Shown here one piece after another: positions 31,419 to 39,938 of a DNA stretch of 43,623 nucleotides (its first letter is position 1; each line of letters begins with the position of its first letter). Origin of the DNA: Candidatus Nitrosocosmicus sp. (GTDB lineage Archaea; Thermoproteota; Nitrososphaeria; Nitrososphaerales; Nitrososphaeraceae); assembly GCA_031177355.1 (NCBI GenBank), contig JAPSGR010000014.1:1-43623 (forward strand). The letters run 5' to 3'. The notes beneath the pieces are model-generated. The model ran no database searches. It worked only from the letters and a program-made list of their open reading frames with translations, and was not told the origin of the DNA. The translations under genes were made by a program, and so were the position numbers.

Positions 31419-31862
31419 ATGAAAATAGTTATTTTCTTTGGCTTCGTGTTATTATCGATGCTGTTTGTAGGGGTTGGAGTATCATCTGAGAATTTCAAGG
31501 AATTTGAAGTCTCAGGTCAGGCCAGCACTAGCAGTAATGAAGAAAACACTAGAGTTTTGGATCAGTTGATAACAAATCTAACTCAAGCACAAAGTACTGT
31601 CGCAAATAACAACTCAGAATTGGCTAGTACTCAATTAACTGCTATTATTGGAGAATTATCTGATATAATCGGCAAGATCACCACCAATAACAATGGACAG
31701 TATCTGGATACTCATACGCATTTCTTTAACCACAAAGGACATGCACATAGTGTGACACATACACACCCACATCATTCTGACCATCACGGTCACCATGAAA
31801 GCTGGACTGAAAAGCACCACATCTTCGATCCTAGTAACTGTAAACCTGGATTAATGTGCTAA
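31419..31862 (+). CDS. Secreted protein with His-rich metal-binding tail
   Basis: This 147-residue protein has a signal peptide (to about 22). A helical middle (LDQLITNLTQAQSTVANNNS then QLTAIIGELSDIIGKI) resembles the mature part of the protein at 11010-11348. The last 50 residues hold about 15 His: THTHFFNHKGHAHSVTHTHP then HHSDHHGHHESW. The ending NCKPGLMC has two Cys. The tail should bind zinc, nickel or copper outside the membrane. Whether it serves storage, supply or detoxification is unknown. A T-tract follows the gene. Confidence 0.75.
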   Translation: MKIVIFFGFVLLSMLFVGVGVSSENFKEFEVSGQASTSSNEENTRVLDQLITNLTQAQSTVANNNSELASTQLTAIIGELSDIIGKITTNNNGQYLDTHTHFFNHKGHAHSVTHTHPHHSDHHGHHESWTEKHHIFDPSNCKPGLMC

Positions 31863-32048: not shown

Positions 32049-32642
32049 ATGACTACAATCATCGGAATAAAAACAACGGAAGGAGTTGTATTAGCATCAG
32101 ATAAAAGAGCAAGTAAGGGCTTTTTTATTGGCTCAAAAATAGTACAAAAAATTTCTAAAATAGATGAAACGCTTGCAATAGCAATAGCTGGGCAGTTATC
32201 TGATGCTGAACATTTGATAAAAGTGGCTGCTGCGGAGCGAAAATTGATAGAGCTGAGAAGAGGATTTCCCCTGAGTGTTAAAGAATCTTCTAGACTAATT
32301 GCAAATCTAGCATATTCTGGACTCCGTAGTTATCAGCCATACTATGTGGAATTACTAGTAGCAGGGGTAGACTCCAGTGGATCGCATGTTAATGTAGCAG
32401 ATATGAGTGGAGCTATAACCAATGAGGATTATGCAGCCTCCGGATCTGGCGCACCAATAGCTTATGGAGTACTCGAAAGTCTTTATGACAAGAACATTAC
32501 AAATGACGAGGCAAAAGAGATCGCAAAAAAGGCAGTTTTAGCAGCAATGGAGCGCGACCCAGGATCAGGGAATGGTACAGATATTGTGGTGATTCCTAAA
32601 CTGATAACATCTACCGCTGCTTCAGGGCAGTTAATAGCATAA
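32049..32642 (+). CDS. psmB: 20S proteasome beta-type subunit without propeptide
   Basis: This 197-residue Ntn hydrolase begins MTTIIGIKTTEGVVLASDKR. Removing Met exposes Thr as nucleophile, and counting from it Asp17 (ASDKR) and Lys33 (KIVQKISK) fall exactly where proteasome beta subunits need them. SGSGAP, and later ERDPGSGNGTD with Asp and Ser of the 166/169 pair, complete the active site. No propeptide is present, so maturation needs only Met removal. The alpha-like gene follows after 17 bases, preceded by GAGAGGT, so the two form one operon. It probably pairs with that alpha or with the main proteasome elsewhere. Confidence 0.92.
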   Translation: MTTIIGIKTTEGVVLASDKRASKGFFIGSKIVQKISKIDETLAIAIAGQLSDAEHLIKVAAAERKLIELRRGFPLSVKESSRLIANLAYSGLRSYQPYYVELLVAGVDSSGSHVNVADMSGAITNEDYAASGSGAPIAYGVLESLYDKNITNDEAKEIAKKAVLAAMERDPGSGNGTDIVVIPKLITSTAASGQLIA

Positions 32643-32659
32643 GAGAGGTACGATAAAGC

Positions 32660-33343
32660 ATGATAGAAGAAAATAGTTCGGCGACTTCGCAATATAGTGT
32701 AGGAAATAATGGTAGATATCCTTACTATTATGGACAAGGCGGCAGACTAGTATTAGTAGATAGCGCCCTAGAGGCAGTCAACAAAGGTTCGACTACTATT
32801 GGTATAAGAACCCCAGAATTTGCTTTGATAACAAGTCATATCAAACCCACATTACCATTAGTCGACCCAAATGAAAAAATATTCACAATCGATAAGCATA
32901 TCGGAGCAACAGGCGCAGGATATATAGCAGATATCGAGCAATTAATAGAAGAAATAAGACTACAGGCGCAAAAACATCGATTGTCTTATGAAAGTCCAAT
33001 TGACATAAAAACCGTTGCTAAGTATCTAAGCACCTATCTTCATAATTACACAATATACGCAGTGAGACCACAGGCAGCTTCCGTCATAATTGCTGGGGCA
33101 GATGAAACTGGAATTCAACTATACCAAGTTGACCCTAGTGGAACTTATTTAAAAGGAAATGGATTTGCAATAGGCCATGAAGCAGATACTGCAATTGAGG
33201 TAATTCAAAAAGAATACACCAAGGATCTAACAATTGATAAGGCTTTGGAACTAGCAAGGCAAGCAATTGAGGCAGCAATTGGTGAGAAACCCATTGTCGA
33301 ATCAGGAATAGTGACTACAAAAGGATTTTCGAAATTGAGTTAA
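32660..33343 (+). CDS. psmA: Divergent 20S proteasome alpha-type subunit
   Basis: This 227-residue protein aligns over its length to archaeal alpha subunits: GRLVLVDSALEAVNKGSTTI (about 28-47), EKIFTIDKHIGATGAGYIAD, SYESPIDIKTVAKYLSTYLH, AVRPQAASVIIAGADETGIQ and a KALELARQAIEAA helix. Compared with Thermoplasma alpha, the gate residues Tyr8, Asp9, Pro17 and Tyr26 fall on Asn17, Gly18, Gln26 and Ser35. The pocket lysine used by activator tails (Lys66) is kept as Lys73. This suggests a ring with an altered gate, able to dock an activator. It is co-transcribed with the beta gene. Alignment was by eye. Confidence 0.85.
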   Translation: MIEENSSATSQYSVGNNGRYPYYYGQGGRLVLVDSALEAVNKGSTTIGIRTPEFALITSHIKPTLPLVDPNEKIFTIDKHIGATGAGYIADIEQLIEEIRLQAQKHRLSYESPIDIKTVAKYLSTYLHNYTIYAVRPQAASVIIAGADETGIQLYQVDPSGTYLKGNGFAIGHEADTAIEVIQKEYTKDLTIDKALELARQAIEAAIGEKPIVESGIVTTKGFSKLS

Positions 33344-33439: not shown

Positions 33440-34357
33440 TTATTTTCCTTTTTTAATTTTATATTTTAAATCGTCCGTAAACACCTGGGGAAGGGTCTTT
33501 TTCAAATCAGGATTTTCGGTTAAACCTTCTTTTAGTTCTTTTATTATTTCACCGACAATTTTATTTGAATAGGACATTGCCTCAATTTTCTTACTATCAG
33601 TTTCAGCATCTGACTCTACTATAAGGTATTCCGATACTATACTTACATTAATCTTGAATAATTCCTTATTACTGTATTTATCCACGGCTATCCATTCAAG
33701 TCTATATCCAGTATCCTTCTTTACTAGTCCCAACCATCTTAGATTCCCAAACCATTTATGAATTATGCCAGCTACTAGATGCTCCACATCCAATTTGACA
33801 GGAAGATGGATTTGTAGTAATTGTTTGAATCGCTTGATTTTTTTTGAGTTTGCTATTTCTTCTGATAAATTCTCTTCTTCATTACTGAATACATCATTTG
33901 TTGAATTTTCAACTAATGAAATAACAGTCGATGCGCTCATTTCATTAAGTCTGTACCCTGATGGCGATTTCTCTATAAAATTAAGGTCAATTAGCCGCCG
34001 TAAAGACCTTGCAAGTGTTTGTTGATGCACATTGAGCTTTCGTTCTAAAGCTTTGAATGAATAGGTTGACCAAAGATGTTCACTTAACAACCACAGGATT
34101 CTTTGATCAACTTTATGAAGATCCTTGACTGATAAAATATAATCATCTGTAGGAAAGGAATCCTTATTTATTCGATGATCATGACCTTCTGAATTTACAT
34201 TAGCAATTCTCGCAAACATCCGATTAGTTTTACCAAATAGTTCATGATTAATTGAGACTAAATTAATAACATCTAGAATCGCATCATCAACAGTCACAAA
34301 ATGTTCAGGTATGATTAAACCAGAAGATTGCATATGATTATTCGAACCGTGGTCCAT
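33440..34357 (-). CDS. Winged-helix DNA-binding protein with long C-terminal domain
   Basis: This 305-residue soluble protein has a winged helix at about 82-138: KVDQRILWLLSEHLWSTYSF then LERKLNVHQQTLARSLRRLI, which is the recognition helix, and a wing FIEKSPSGYRLNE. The first 70 residues are polar with a possible dimer helix. Residues 165-300 form an alpha/beta region (FKQLLQIHLPVKLDVEHLVA, WFGNLRWLGLVKKDTGYRLE) that I cannot name. It is probably a transcription regulator. Its gene is convergent with the proteasome operon and upstream of nothing it must regulate; targets unknown. Confidence 0.7.
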   Translation of the reverse strand: MDHGSNNHMQSSGLIIPEHFVTVDDAILDVINLVSINHELFGKTNRMFARIANVNSEGHDHRINKDSFPTDDYILSVKDLHKVDQRILWLLSEHLWSTYSFKALERKLNVHQQTLARSLRRLIDLNFIEKSPSGYRLNEMSASTVISLVENSTNDVFSNEEENLSEEIANSKKIKRFKQLLQIHLPVKLDVEHLVAGIIHKWFGNLRWLGLVKKDTGYRLEWIAVDKYSNKELFKINVSIVSEYLIVESDAETDSKKIEAMSYSNKIVGEIIKELKEGLTENPDLKKTLPQVFTDDLKYKIKKGK

Positions 34358-38084: not shown

Positions 38085-39938
38085 TCAGCCTTCTTCGTCT
38101 TCATCACTGGAGGATTCGTCTTCATCACTGGAGGATTCGTCTTCATCACTGGAGGATTCGTCTTCATCACTGGAGGATTCGTCTTCATCACTGGAGGATT
38201 CGTCTTCATCACTGGAGGATTCGTCTTCATCACTGGAGGATTCGTCTTCATCGGAATCGAATGAACCTGTCCCAACACCGCTAACGACTACCTCTCCGAC
38301 CATCGTGGGATGGTATATACAATAATATTCGAATTCTCCAGGGTCATTAAAGGTAAGGGTATAGTATTGATTAGGAATTATAGCGTCAGAATCAAATAAA
38401 CTACCTTCATCCGGATCACCATCTCGACCAGATGTTACTGTGTGAGAGATAGTGTCTCCGTTGTACCATGTTATGGTTTGACCAGCTTCAATTTCTATTG
38501 GTTCTGGTGAATAAGAATTGTCACCATCTATTCCCAGTATTACTGCAGGGATGGATTGGTTACGTGATGCTTCCTGTTCGGCAGATACAATAGGTGGAGC
38601 CCTAGGCATAATACTATCAGTTATTGGCAATATTCGAAAGATAGAACCAGTATAGCTTAATACGTACAAGTATCCATCAGGACCTACTTGTATATCAGTA
38701 ATGCCACCAAAACCTTGCCCAAATATTAGAGGTTGATTCTCCTTTGGATCTTCAACTGTATTATCCTGCAATGCTGCTGTATTACCCACATACGTGTCGT
38801 TTATGAAAATGGCATCTCGATCTTCATTAAGCGTAAATCTGTACAATAAACCATTATTAATATCTCCTACAAACATGTTGTTCGCATAATCATCACCCAA
38901 TCTATGAGAGTTTAGAAATTTCAGAGCAGTTATACCTACAGGCCATTCCCACACAAACTTTGGATCGGCATACTGACTACTTCCAAAATACACTAGATCG
39001 CTCACAGTAGTTCCATGACCTAATATATCATCCGCTGCAAATCCCTGAATCTGGTACCATCCACTATTAAATCCAGGAAAAACTAGATTAATTTCGTCAC
39101 CACCGGTAGGCCCATTTTCGGTATCCCATAAATTGCCCGTTAATGGATCAAAATCCATTCCAAAGCTATTACGTATTCCCATAGAATAGTAAACATTTAG
39201 GGGCAAACCTTCACCAAAAATAGGATCATCGGGATCAACAATTCCACCATCTTGGGTGATCCTTAATACTCCGCCTAAACCATTAGGTGCCGGTCCATCA
39301 ATGATATTTTGAGCCTGAGTTCTGTGTCCACCAACTTCTCCTACCATATAATAAACATTATTATCAGGACCAATCCGGATTTTACCTCCATTGTGTTCAC
39401 CCCTTCCATTTGGTGGAGTGGCAGTTAAATCTAATAATAATACAGGATTAATCAATTGACCATCCACAAACTCGTATCGATATAACCTGTTACCTAATGG
39501 ATCAACAAACCTGTCAACATCACTGCCGTCAACACCATCACCTGATTCGGTATAAGAAAGAAAAACATATGTTTTCCCATCTGGTTGCTTTGCTATTGCA
39601 ATACCTAATAATCCTCTTTCGATGGCATTAGCTACCGGCACATCAAGAACTGGTTGCGGAAATACAACGCCGTTTGTAACTCGCTTCACTTGACCGGTGT
39701 TCTTTTCAGTCACCAGTATATCATTGGGTCCTAGAAACGCCATACTTGTAGGGAAATCCAAATCATTTGCTACCTCCTCAACGGTAAGGGTATCATCGTT
39801 TACTGTAGGACCCGTCGGGGATAACGGTGCTTTTGCGTAAGCACCATAAGAAAATTGAACATAAGAAGAAGTGATGGAAGAAATTAGTATTAAAGAAATA
39901 GCGAAAAAGGCAATCAGTGGTTTTAGTCTGCTAAACAT
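38085..39938 (-). CDS. Secreted GSDH-family dehydrogenase fused to a cupredoxin and acidic repeat tail
   Basis: This 617-residue protein has a signal peptide (to about 33). The GSDH propeller (about 50-440) shows DFPTSMAFLGPNDILVTEKN, GRGEHNGGKIRIGPDNNVYY, MGIRNSFGMDFDPLTGNLWD, GPTGGDEINLV and FNSGWYQIQG. A type-1 copper cupredoxin (about 465-555) carries His499 (TISHTVTSG), Cys540, His543 and Met546 (CIYHPTMVG), the full ligand set. The tail is (S)DEDESS repeats. The design suggests sugar or aldehyde oxidation with electron passage to the fused copper domain, outside the cell. PQQ use and the substrate are inferred from the family. Confidence 0.9.
   Translation of the reverse strand: MFSRLKPLIAFFAISLILISSITSSYVQFSYGAYAKAPLSPTGPTVNDDTLTVEEVANDLDFPTSMAFLGPNDILVTEKNTGQVKRVTNGVVFPQPVLDVPVANAIERGLLGIAIAKQPDGKTYVFLSYTESGDGVDGSDVDRFVDPLGNRLYRYEFVDGQLINPVLLLDLTATPPNGRGEHNGGKIRIGPDNNVYYMVGEVGGHRTQAQNIIDGPAPNGLGGVLRITQDGGIVDPDDPIFGEGLPLNVYYSMGIRNSFGMDFDPLTGNLWDTENGPTGGDEINLVFPGFNSGWYQIQGFAADDILGHGTTVSDLVYFGSSQYADPKFVWEWPVGITALKFLNSHRLGDDYANNMFVGDINNGLLYRFTLNEDRDAIFINDTYVGNTAALQDNTVEDPKENQPLIFGQGFGGITDIQVGPDGYLYVLSYTGSIFRILPITDSIMPRAPPIVSAEQEASRNQSIPAVILGIDGDNSYSPEPIEIEAGQTITWYNGDTISHTVTSGRDGDPDEGSLFDSDAIIPNQYYTLTFNDPGEFEYYCIYHPTMVGEVVVSGVGTGSFDSDEDESSSDEDESSSDEDESSSDEDESSSDEDESSSDEDESSSDEDESSSDEDEEG
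38095..38241 (-). repeat. Perfect 21-bp tandem repeat, 7 copies
   Basis: TCGTCTTCATCACTGGAGGA plus T is repeated seven times without mismatch, with a degraded eighth copy to about 38252. On the minus strand it encodes the acidic seven-residue unit SSSDEDE at the C-terminus of the fusion enzyme. Confidence 0.95.

Follow-up and report, generated by a model that had tools for sequence, protein, structure and literature searches.

A probable second proteasome with a remodelled alpha-ring gate and a linked winged-helix gene in Candidatus Nitrosocosmicus and other archaea

The stretch of DNA analysed here (the window, 43,623 nucleotides of Candidatus Nitrosocosmicus sp.) carries two adjacent proteasome subunit genes, which we call beta3 and alpha2. 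With moderate confidence, we interpret this locus as encoding a second, self-contained 20S-type proteasome, in which the axial gate would be remodelled and the dock for the ATPase kept intact, together with a linked, probable winged-helix regulator. The parts of the locus are the following:

32049..32642, + strand: beta3, proteasome beta subunit of 197 aa, Met followed by Thr1 (PF00227, 160 bits)
32643..32659, + strand: gap of 17 bases between beta3 and alpha2, with an SD-like GAGAGGT at 32643-32649, ahead of alpha2
32660..33343, + strand: alpha2, alpha-type proteasome subunit of 227 aa with a remodelled N-terminal gate (PF00227, 152 bits; PF10584 absent)
32714..32746, + strand: codons 19-29 of alpha2, RYPYYYGQGGR, an aromatic stretch in place of the canonical R-AITVF-SPDGR; form conserved among 119 alpha2 sequences
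32876..32878, + strand: Lys73 of alpha2, corresponding to Lys66 of the activator pocket (Lys in all 119 alpha2 rows)
33440..34357, - strand: MarR-like winged-helix protein whose C-terminal domain is of the KWF..LRWxG type; in the window it is convergent with alpha2

A previous reading of the locus made without database searches (the sequence-only reading) had described a beta ORF and, 17 bases after it, an alpha-type ORF. Both ORFs were found at these coordinates and match PF00227, and in the PDB their closest relatives by sequence search belong to archaeal 20S proteasomes (alpha and beta subunits). Just 5' of beta3, the window also encodes a small protein (31419-31862, + strand) whose N-terminus is signal-like and whose C-terminus is rich in His; a gene of equal size is conserved at this position in the genus, and Pfam gave no convincing match for it. 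Further downstream lies a gene (38085-39938, - strand) for a protein resembling glucose/sorbosone dehydrogenases that has a cupredoxin domain and, at its C-terminus, a tandem repeat of SSDEDE.

The search of the whole genome for other alpha and beta genes that had been suggested earlier turned up three more. Altogether, the window genome has five PF00227 genes, namely alpha1 (C88), beta1 (C6), beta2 (C83), beta3 and alpha2, and the reading of the pair as the ordinary proteasome was rejected on account of the three further genes. The same layout was observed in twelve more genomes from Nitrososphaeria, Thermoplasmata, Marsarchaeota and the families f27 and f37, although in some of them a few housekeeping genes were not found. 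In a phylogeny of 95 proteasome subunits (no haloarchaeal alpha among them), we recovered branches for alpha1 (support 98/87), alpha2 minus f27 (100/99), f27 alpha2 (100/99), beta2 (100/98) and beta3 (100/99), and alpha2 together with f27 was split from all alpha1, Thermoplasma included, with support 100/95. Two sets in the genome, separate alpha2 and beta3 clades and the constant linkage of the pair make the earlier proposal of a second, distinct set beside the housekeeping proteasome well supported, with a corresponding particle predicted from these data. In two genomes of family f9 (G044, L049 at 89-844, - strand; G058, L051 at 95-820, - strand), we noted a second, different alpha paralog and no alpha2/beta3; this paralog falls inside the alpha1 clade, and the tail of the L049 copy is altered (YDMTPTMYSPDGR).

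Of 400 genomes of the class that were searched with an alpha2 profile, 81 were carriers; 80 of these scored 333-418 bits, and the remaining one, a fragment, 204 bits. The other alphas listed scored no more than 179 bits, a clean separation. In the rest of the phylum, alpha2 was detected in f37 (279-285 bits) and f27 (198-228 bits) and was absent from the other families sampled, where the next best score was 180. The class of one Thermoplasmata carrier had alpha2 in 18 of 300 genomes. Among the carriers with a name are Nitrosocosmicus, Nitrososphaera MAGs, Nitrosotalea devanaterra, Marsarchaeota G1 BE_D and several soil 'Euryarchaeota' MAGs. In family f9, which includes the Nitrosotalea devanaterra contig (G098), alpha2 is absent from most of the genera sampled. 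At every locus, alpha2 and beta3 are adjacent unless the contig ends first, and this holds for Nitrosocosmicus, other Nitrososphaeraceae, Nitrosotalea, f27, f37, Marsarchaeota and soil Thermoplasmata. Thermoplasmata alpha1 clusters with Thermoplasma, whereas Thermoplasmata alpha2 and beta3 cluster with the Thermoproteota copies, suggesting that the two genes crossed between phyla together and that alpha1 did not move with them. Contamination of MAGs is an unlikely source of the Thermoplasmata copies, since they come from many separate MAGs, on contigs with GC of 63-70% (32% in the window), and form their own sub-branch at 53-55% identity to the window.

Two single cases were noted during this survey. 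Nitrosotalea sp. TS has two alpha2/beta3 loci (L104 and L105) on two contigs, with equal scores and a winged-helix gene beside each, either a duplication or an assembly artefact. In a soil Thermoplasmata MAG (G692, L220 at 1447-2166, - strand), one 239-aa ORF fuses a ribbon-helix-helix domain (RHH_1) in frame to a PF10584+PF00227 alpha-type domain, a possible DNA-binding proteasome-like protein.

Judged by its residues, beta3 is a catalytically complete beta subunit. For the alignments, Thermoplasma acidophilum alpha and beta served as reference sequences. The residues that the sequence-only reading had noted in a propeptide-free beta, Thr1, Asp17, Lys33 and Asp166/Ser169, are all present in beta3, together with Ser129. 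The N-terminus of beta3 is Met-Thr-Thr, so removal of Met alone would expose Thr1; the autocatalytically removed propeptide, a trait of catalytic beta subunits, is absent. Among the relatives of beta3, Thr1 and Asp17 occur in 108 of 108 rows reaching that far, Lys33 in 109 of 109, Ser129 and Ser169 in 110 of 110 and Asp166 in 109 of 110, and Met immediately precedes Thr1 in 106 of 108. Beta3 narrowly misses the cut-off of the NCBI equivalog TIGR03634 (PsmB; 202 versus 224 bits) and scores 20-23 bits against the curated HslV models (cut-offs 157 and 137). In the Nitrososphaeria genomes examined (L001, L003 and others), the catalytic equipment of the ordinary particle is unusual, with Ala in beta2 where Thr1 is expected and Asn166/Thr169 in beta1. 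Thus, beta3 is the sole beta subunit with the textbook catalytic set in these genomes.

The particle that we propose would probably consist of homoheptameric outer rings of alpha2 and catalytically active inner rings of beta3. Alternatively, alpha2 and beta3 may be exchange subunits that enter the housekeeping particle, giving mixed alpha1/alpha2 rings and beta3 beside beta1 and beta2, and alter its gating and activity under some conditions. The two sets coexist in every sufficiently complete genome examined, mixed alpha1/alpha2 particles are known from haloarchaea, and an additional fully canonical beta could be useful next to the deviating beta1 and beta2. However, the strict pairing of alpha2 with beta3 and their transfer across phyla without alpha1 favour self-sufficiency, and alpha1 shares only about 37% identity with alpha2. 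We consider subunit exchange unlikely and retain the separate alpha2/beta3 particle as the preferred reading.

Alpha2 is a 20S alpha-type subunit at the superfamily level, as defined by the proteasome Ntn fold with an additional N-terminal helix, H0, and by the activator pocket. It lies on the alpha side of the subunit tree with support 100/100, its AlphaFold model (pLDDT 87) has the 20S alpha fold with H0 at residues 31-42, and Foldseek matched its core to 20S alpha chains at TM of about 0.85. Its score is below the cut-off of TIGR03633 (PsmA equivalog; 155 versus 287 bits), which the alpha1 of the same genome passes (293 bits). As had been claimed, Tyr8, Asp9, Pro17 and Tyr26 of Thermoplasma align with Asn17, Gly18, Gln26 and Ser35 of the window protein, and the retained Lys66 aligns with its Lys73. 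In the same alignment the canonical gate motif is complete in the alpha1 of this genome, and PF10584, the Pfam signature of the alpha N-terminus, was found in this alpha1 (51 bits) and not in alpha2, so the loss of the gate residues is no artefact of alignment. Misalignment of the gate was also rejected because the alignment of the 23 canonical alphas with the 119 alpha2 rows is good from Arg20 onwards, with the absence of PF10584 as an independent check, while positions 8-9 stay alignment-sensitive.

We compared residue frequencies between 119 non-redundant alpha2 rows and the 23 canonical alphas, all of which have Tyr8, Asp9, Thr13, Pro17 and Tyr26. In alpha2, position 8 is mostly Ser, Asn or Gly and position 9 mostly Gly, Asn or Ser; Arg10 is kept in 105 of 119 rows, Ile12 is replaced by Pro in 95, and at positions 11 and 13-15 the residue, where there is one, is mostly aromatic, with Tyr15 in 118 rows. 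Position 26 is Ser, Asn, Ala or Arg in 87 rows and Tyr or Phe in 32, and the activator-pocket residues Gly34, Lys66 and Gly80 are each invariant (119/119). The four-residue loss proposed earlier thus holds in part: the losses of Tyr8, Asp9 and, for the most part, Tyr26 are general in the Nitrososphaeria section of the alpha2 clade, whereas Pro17 is kept in 99 of 119 rows and its change to Gln, seen only in Nitrosocosmicus and, separately, in some Thermoplasmata, is local and not a trait of the family. Going by these sequences, the alpha2 relatives are a graded series: at one end YDR is retained and the switch altered, at the other all of these elements are replaced. Some alpha2 of family f27 (L181 GYDRPFVMYTPDGR, L182, L183) retain YDR with an altered IT switch, others of this family have YER, YGR or no such motif, and those of Thermoplasmata and Marsarchaeota are without YD and retain Tyr26. 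The alpha2 tail up to Arg20 is mostly 17-30 residues long and that of most alpha1 is 20, so it is not cut short. Among the alpha1 sampled from 23 genomes, we also observed Tyr81 throughout, which corresponds to L81Y, a substitution partly opening the Thermoplasma gate.

The sequence-only reading had suggested that alpha2 seems to have lost its gate and is perhaps open-gated, and neither suggestion is borne out in that form. The tail is mostly of canonical length or longer and carries a conserved new aromatic motif, and in archaeal proteasomes Tyr8, Asp9, Pro17 and Tyr26 stabilise the open form, so that mutating any of them severely lowers degradation (PMC6696185). Their loss alone is therefore no proof of an open gate. 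YDR also maintains the closed state, and Ile12/Thr13 act as a switch; in Thermoplasma, basal activity rises about 3-fold with I12A, about 2-fold with I12F and about 6-fold with I12T, none of these variants responds to PA26, and of the three only I12A is activated by PAN (PMC10349882). As alpha2 is without both YDR and the IT switch, both gate states are expected to be altered. The conserved aromatic residues and the fully conserved ATPase pocket argue for a gate that may have been rebuilt more than abolished. In the model we favour, YDR, the Ile12-Thr13 switch and Tyr26 would have given way to a Pro- and aromatic-rich collar (RYPYYYG), the pockets for the HbYX tail of the ATPase would be retained, and entry would be governed by the collar and not by the canonical switch; basal leakage would then be higher, or the trigger another one. 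The collar is a prediction from sequence conservation, as tail residues 1-22 are disordered in the AlphaFold model. The persistence of YDR in some alpha2 of f27, the oldest branch, counts against this remodelled-gate model.

A simply open alpha2 ring, with YDR and IT lost and the tail disordered, would degrade peptides and unfolded proteins without any ATPase. The elevated basal activity of the three Ile12 variants, the contribution of YDR to closure and the disorder of the modelled tail are all in keeping with such a ring, which we nevertheless regard as rather improbable: a full-length tail with a conserved aromatic motif is unexpected if useless, the four gate residues serve the open state, so that mutating them costs activity, and the complete conservation of the ATPase pocket would make no sense.

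For the remodelled-gate particle, the earlier idea that it is served by a particular ATPase is unsupported so far. Several Cdc48-like ATPases that differ in their tails are encoded in the genome, and those of genomes G000, G007 and G098 have C-terminal endings that include QYR, YYR, HFR and FYG. The HbYX-tailed (FYG) Cdc48 paralog, the sole paralog examined as a candidate for a dedicated ATPase, does not track alpha2: it is present in the alpha2-negative G001, G008 and G010, and no ortholog of it was seen in the alpha2-positive G022 and G029. In this comparison, limited to the FYG-tailed paralog, no dedicated ATPase was found, which counts against the model we favour. The simplest reading is that the ATPase is shared with the housekeeping particle, in which case a common AAA ATPase would dock normally on alpha2. 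At least five Cdc48-like ATPases with two AAA domains are encoded on contigs C6, C25, C27, C44 and C114 of G000, ending in QYR, FYG, VDR, KKQ and VVK.

The winged-helix gene, which had gone unmentioned in the sequence-only reading, belongs to the finding. By clustering of neighbouring ORFs, one gene family was found in 59 of 97 loci, encoding a MarR-like winged helix with a conserved KWF..LRWxG-type C-terminal domain; it lies within about 5.8 kb in 41 of the 44 loci that have at least 5.5 kb of flank on each side. MarR_2 matches 40 of 41 family members at E<=0.01 (the window copy does not reach the curated cut-off), and the top Foldseek matches are regulators of the MarR-like kind (E of about 0.002-0.04), with nothing significant for the C-terminal domain. 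The order wHTH-beta3-alpha2 on one strand, with wHTH just upstream of beta3, occurs in 8 of 8 f27/f37 loci, and the gene is also just upstream of beta3 in Marsarchaeota and some Thermoplasmata loci; in Nitrosocosmicus and Nitrosotalea it is downstream of alpha2 on the opposite strand. The alpha2/beta3 set looks ancient. Given the upstream, same-strand position of the winged-helix gene in the deep lineages, the ancestral unit looks like a three-gene operon, wHTH-beta3-alpha2.

Among the 81 alpha2-positive genomes, 68 have a strong winged-helix ortholog and 5 a weaker one; the 319 alpha2-negative genomes include 4 with a strong ortholog and 34 with a weaker relative, which counts against the module reading. 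Shared ancestry inflates such co-occurrence, and linkage in differing arrangements is the better evidence. We suggest that the winged-helix protein probably regulates transcription of its own module. It is a doubtful but conceivable extension that the protein also acts as a sensor or adaptor through which its substrates, or the protein itself, reach a collar-controlled proteasome, making the locus a dedicated module of regulated proteolysis. If true, archaea would have a particle devoted to a single pathway, with its three genes inherited and transferred together.

That alpha2 and beta3 are a decaying duplicate under relaxed constraint, with no specific function, is highly improbable: positions 8 and 9 are variable, and the module is absent from most class genomes sampled and from three of the window's genus, but Tyr15, Arg10 and Pro12 are kept at the frequencies given above, the catalytic and pocket residues are invariant, and in those three genomes (G001, G008 and G010) the pair and the winged-helix gene are all missing together. 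A phage origin and a role as a defence system were also considered and rejected. No match was found among 50,697 phage records, and PADLOC returned no hit for alpha2 or beta3 as parts of a defence system.

We compared the alpha2/beta3 set with known systems. It resembles the archaeal 20S proteasome (PsmA/PsmB of Thermoplasma, Archaeoglobus and Sulfolobus) in fold, in the division of labour between alpha and beta, in the Thr1 active site and in the HbYX pocket with Lys66. It differs in that YDR, the IT switch and Tyr26 of alpha2 are replaced, both subunits score below the NCBI equivalog cut-offs, beta3 is without a propeptide, and the pair forms its own clade with a linked winged-helix gene. 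Haloferax PsmC is a haloarchaeal second alpha gene beside the housekeeping alpha, like alpha2 here. In contrast to PsmC, alpha2 always comes with its own beta. Other prokaryotic proteasome homologs of the same Ntn-hydrolase family (HslV, Anbu, BPH, WPH, PHI, ACC and others) often co-occur with a housekeeping proteasome (Fuchs et al. 2021, PMC8665760). Alpha2 and beta3 differ from these in being genuine subunits of the alpha and beta types, with beta3 at 20 bits against an HslV cut-off of 157. Thaumarchaeota and Nitroso- taxa are not mentioned by Fuchs et al. 2021 (PMC8665760). The curated actinobacterial models also fail, with 16.6 versus 139 bits for 20S_bact_alpha and 73.6 versus 192 bits for 20S_bact_beta. 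In the human 20S proteasome, natural departures from YD or IT in alpha1, alpha2 and alpha3 likewise alter gating (PMC8907193, PMC10349882); there the variants are single in a hetero-heptamer, whereas an archaeal alpha2 homo-ring would bear them in every subunit. A literature search, with most subscription journals outside its cover, retrieved no published description of the alpha2/beta3 set.

In textbooks the archaeal proteasome stands for the simple 20S particle, and it is the chief model of gate function. An alpha2 particle, with the same activator pocket and no YDR/IT, would be a natural experiment on which gate parts are needed for control by ATPases, and the graded alpha2 series allows the steps of the gate change to be tested singly. 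If the interpretation is true, many soil ammonia oxidisers, as well as unrelated archaea that acquired the set, would run two proteasomes.
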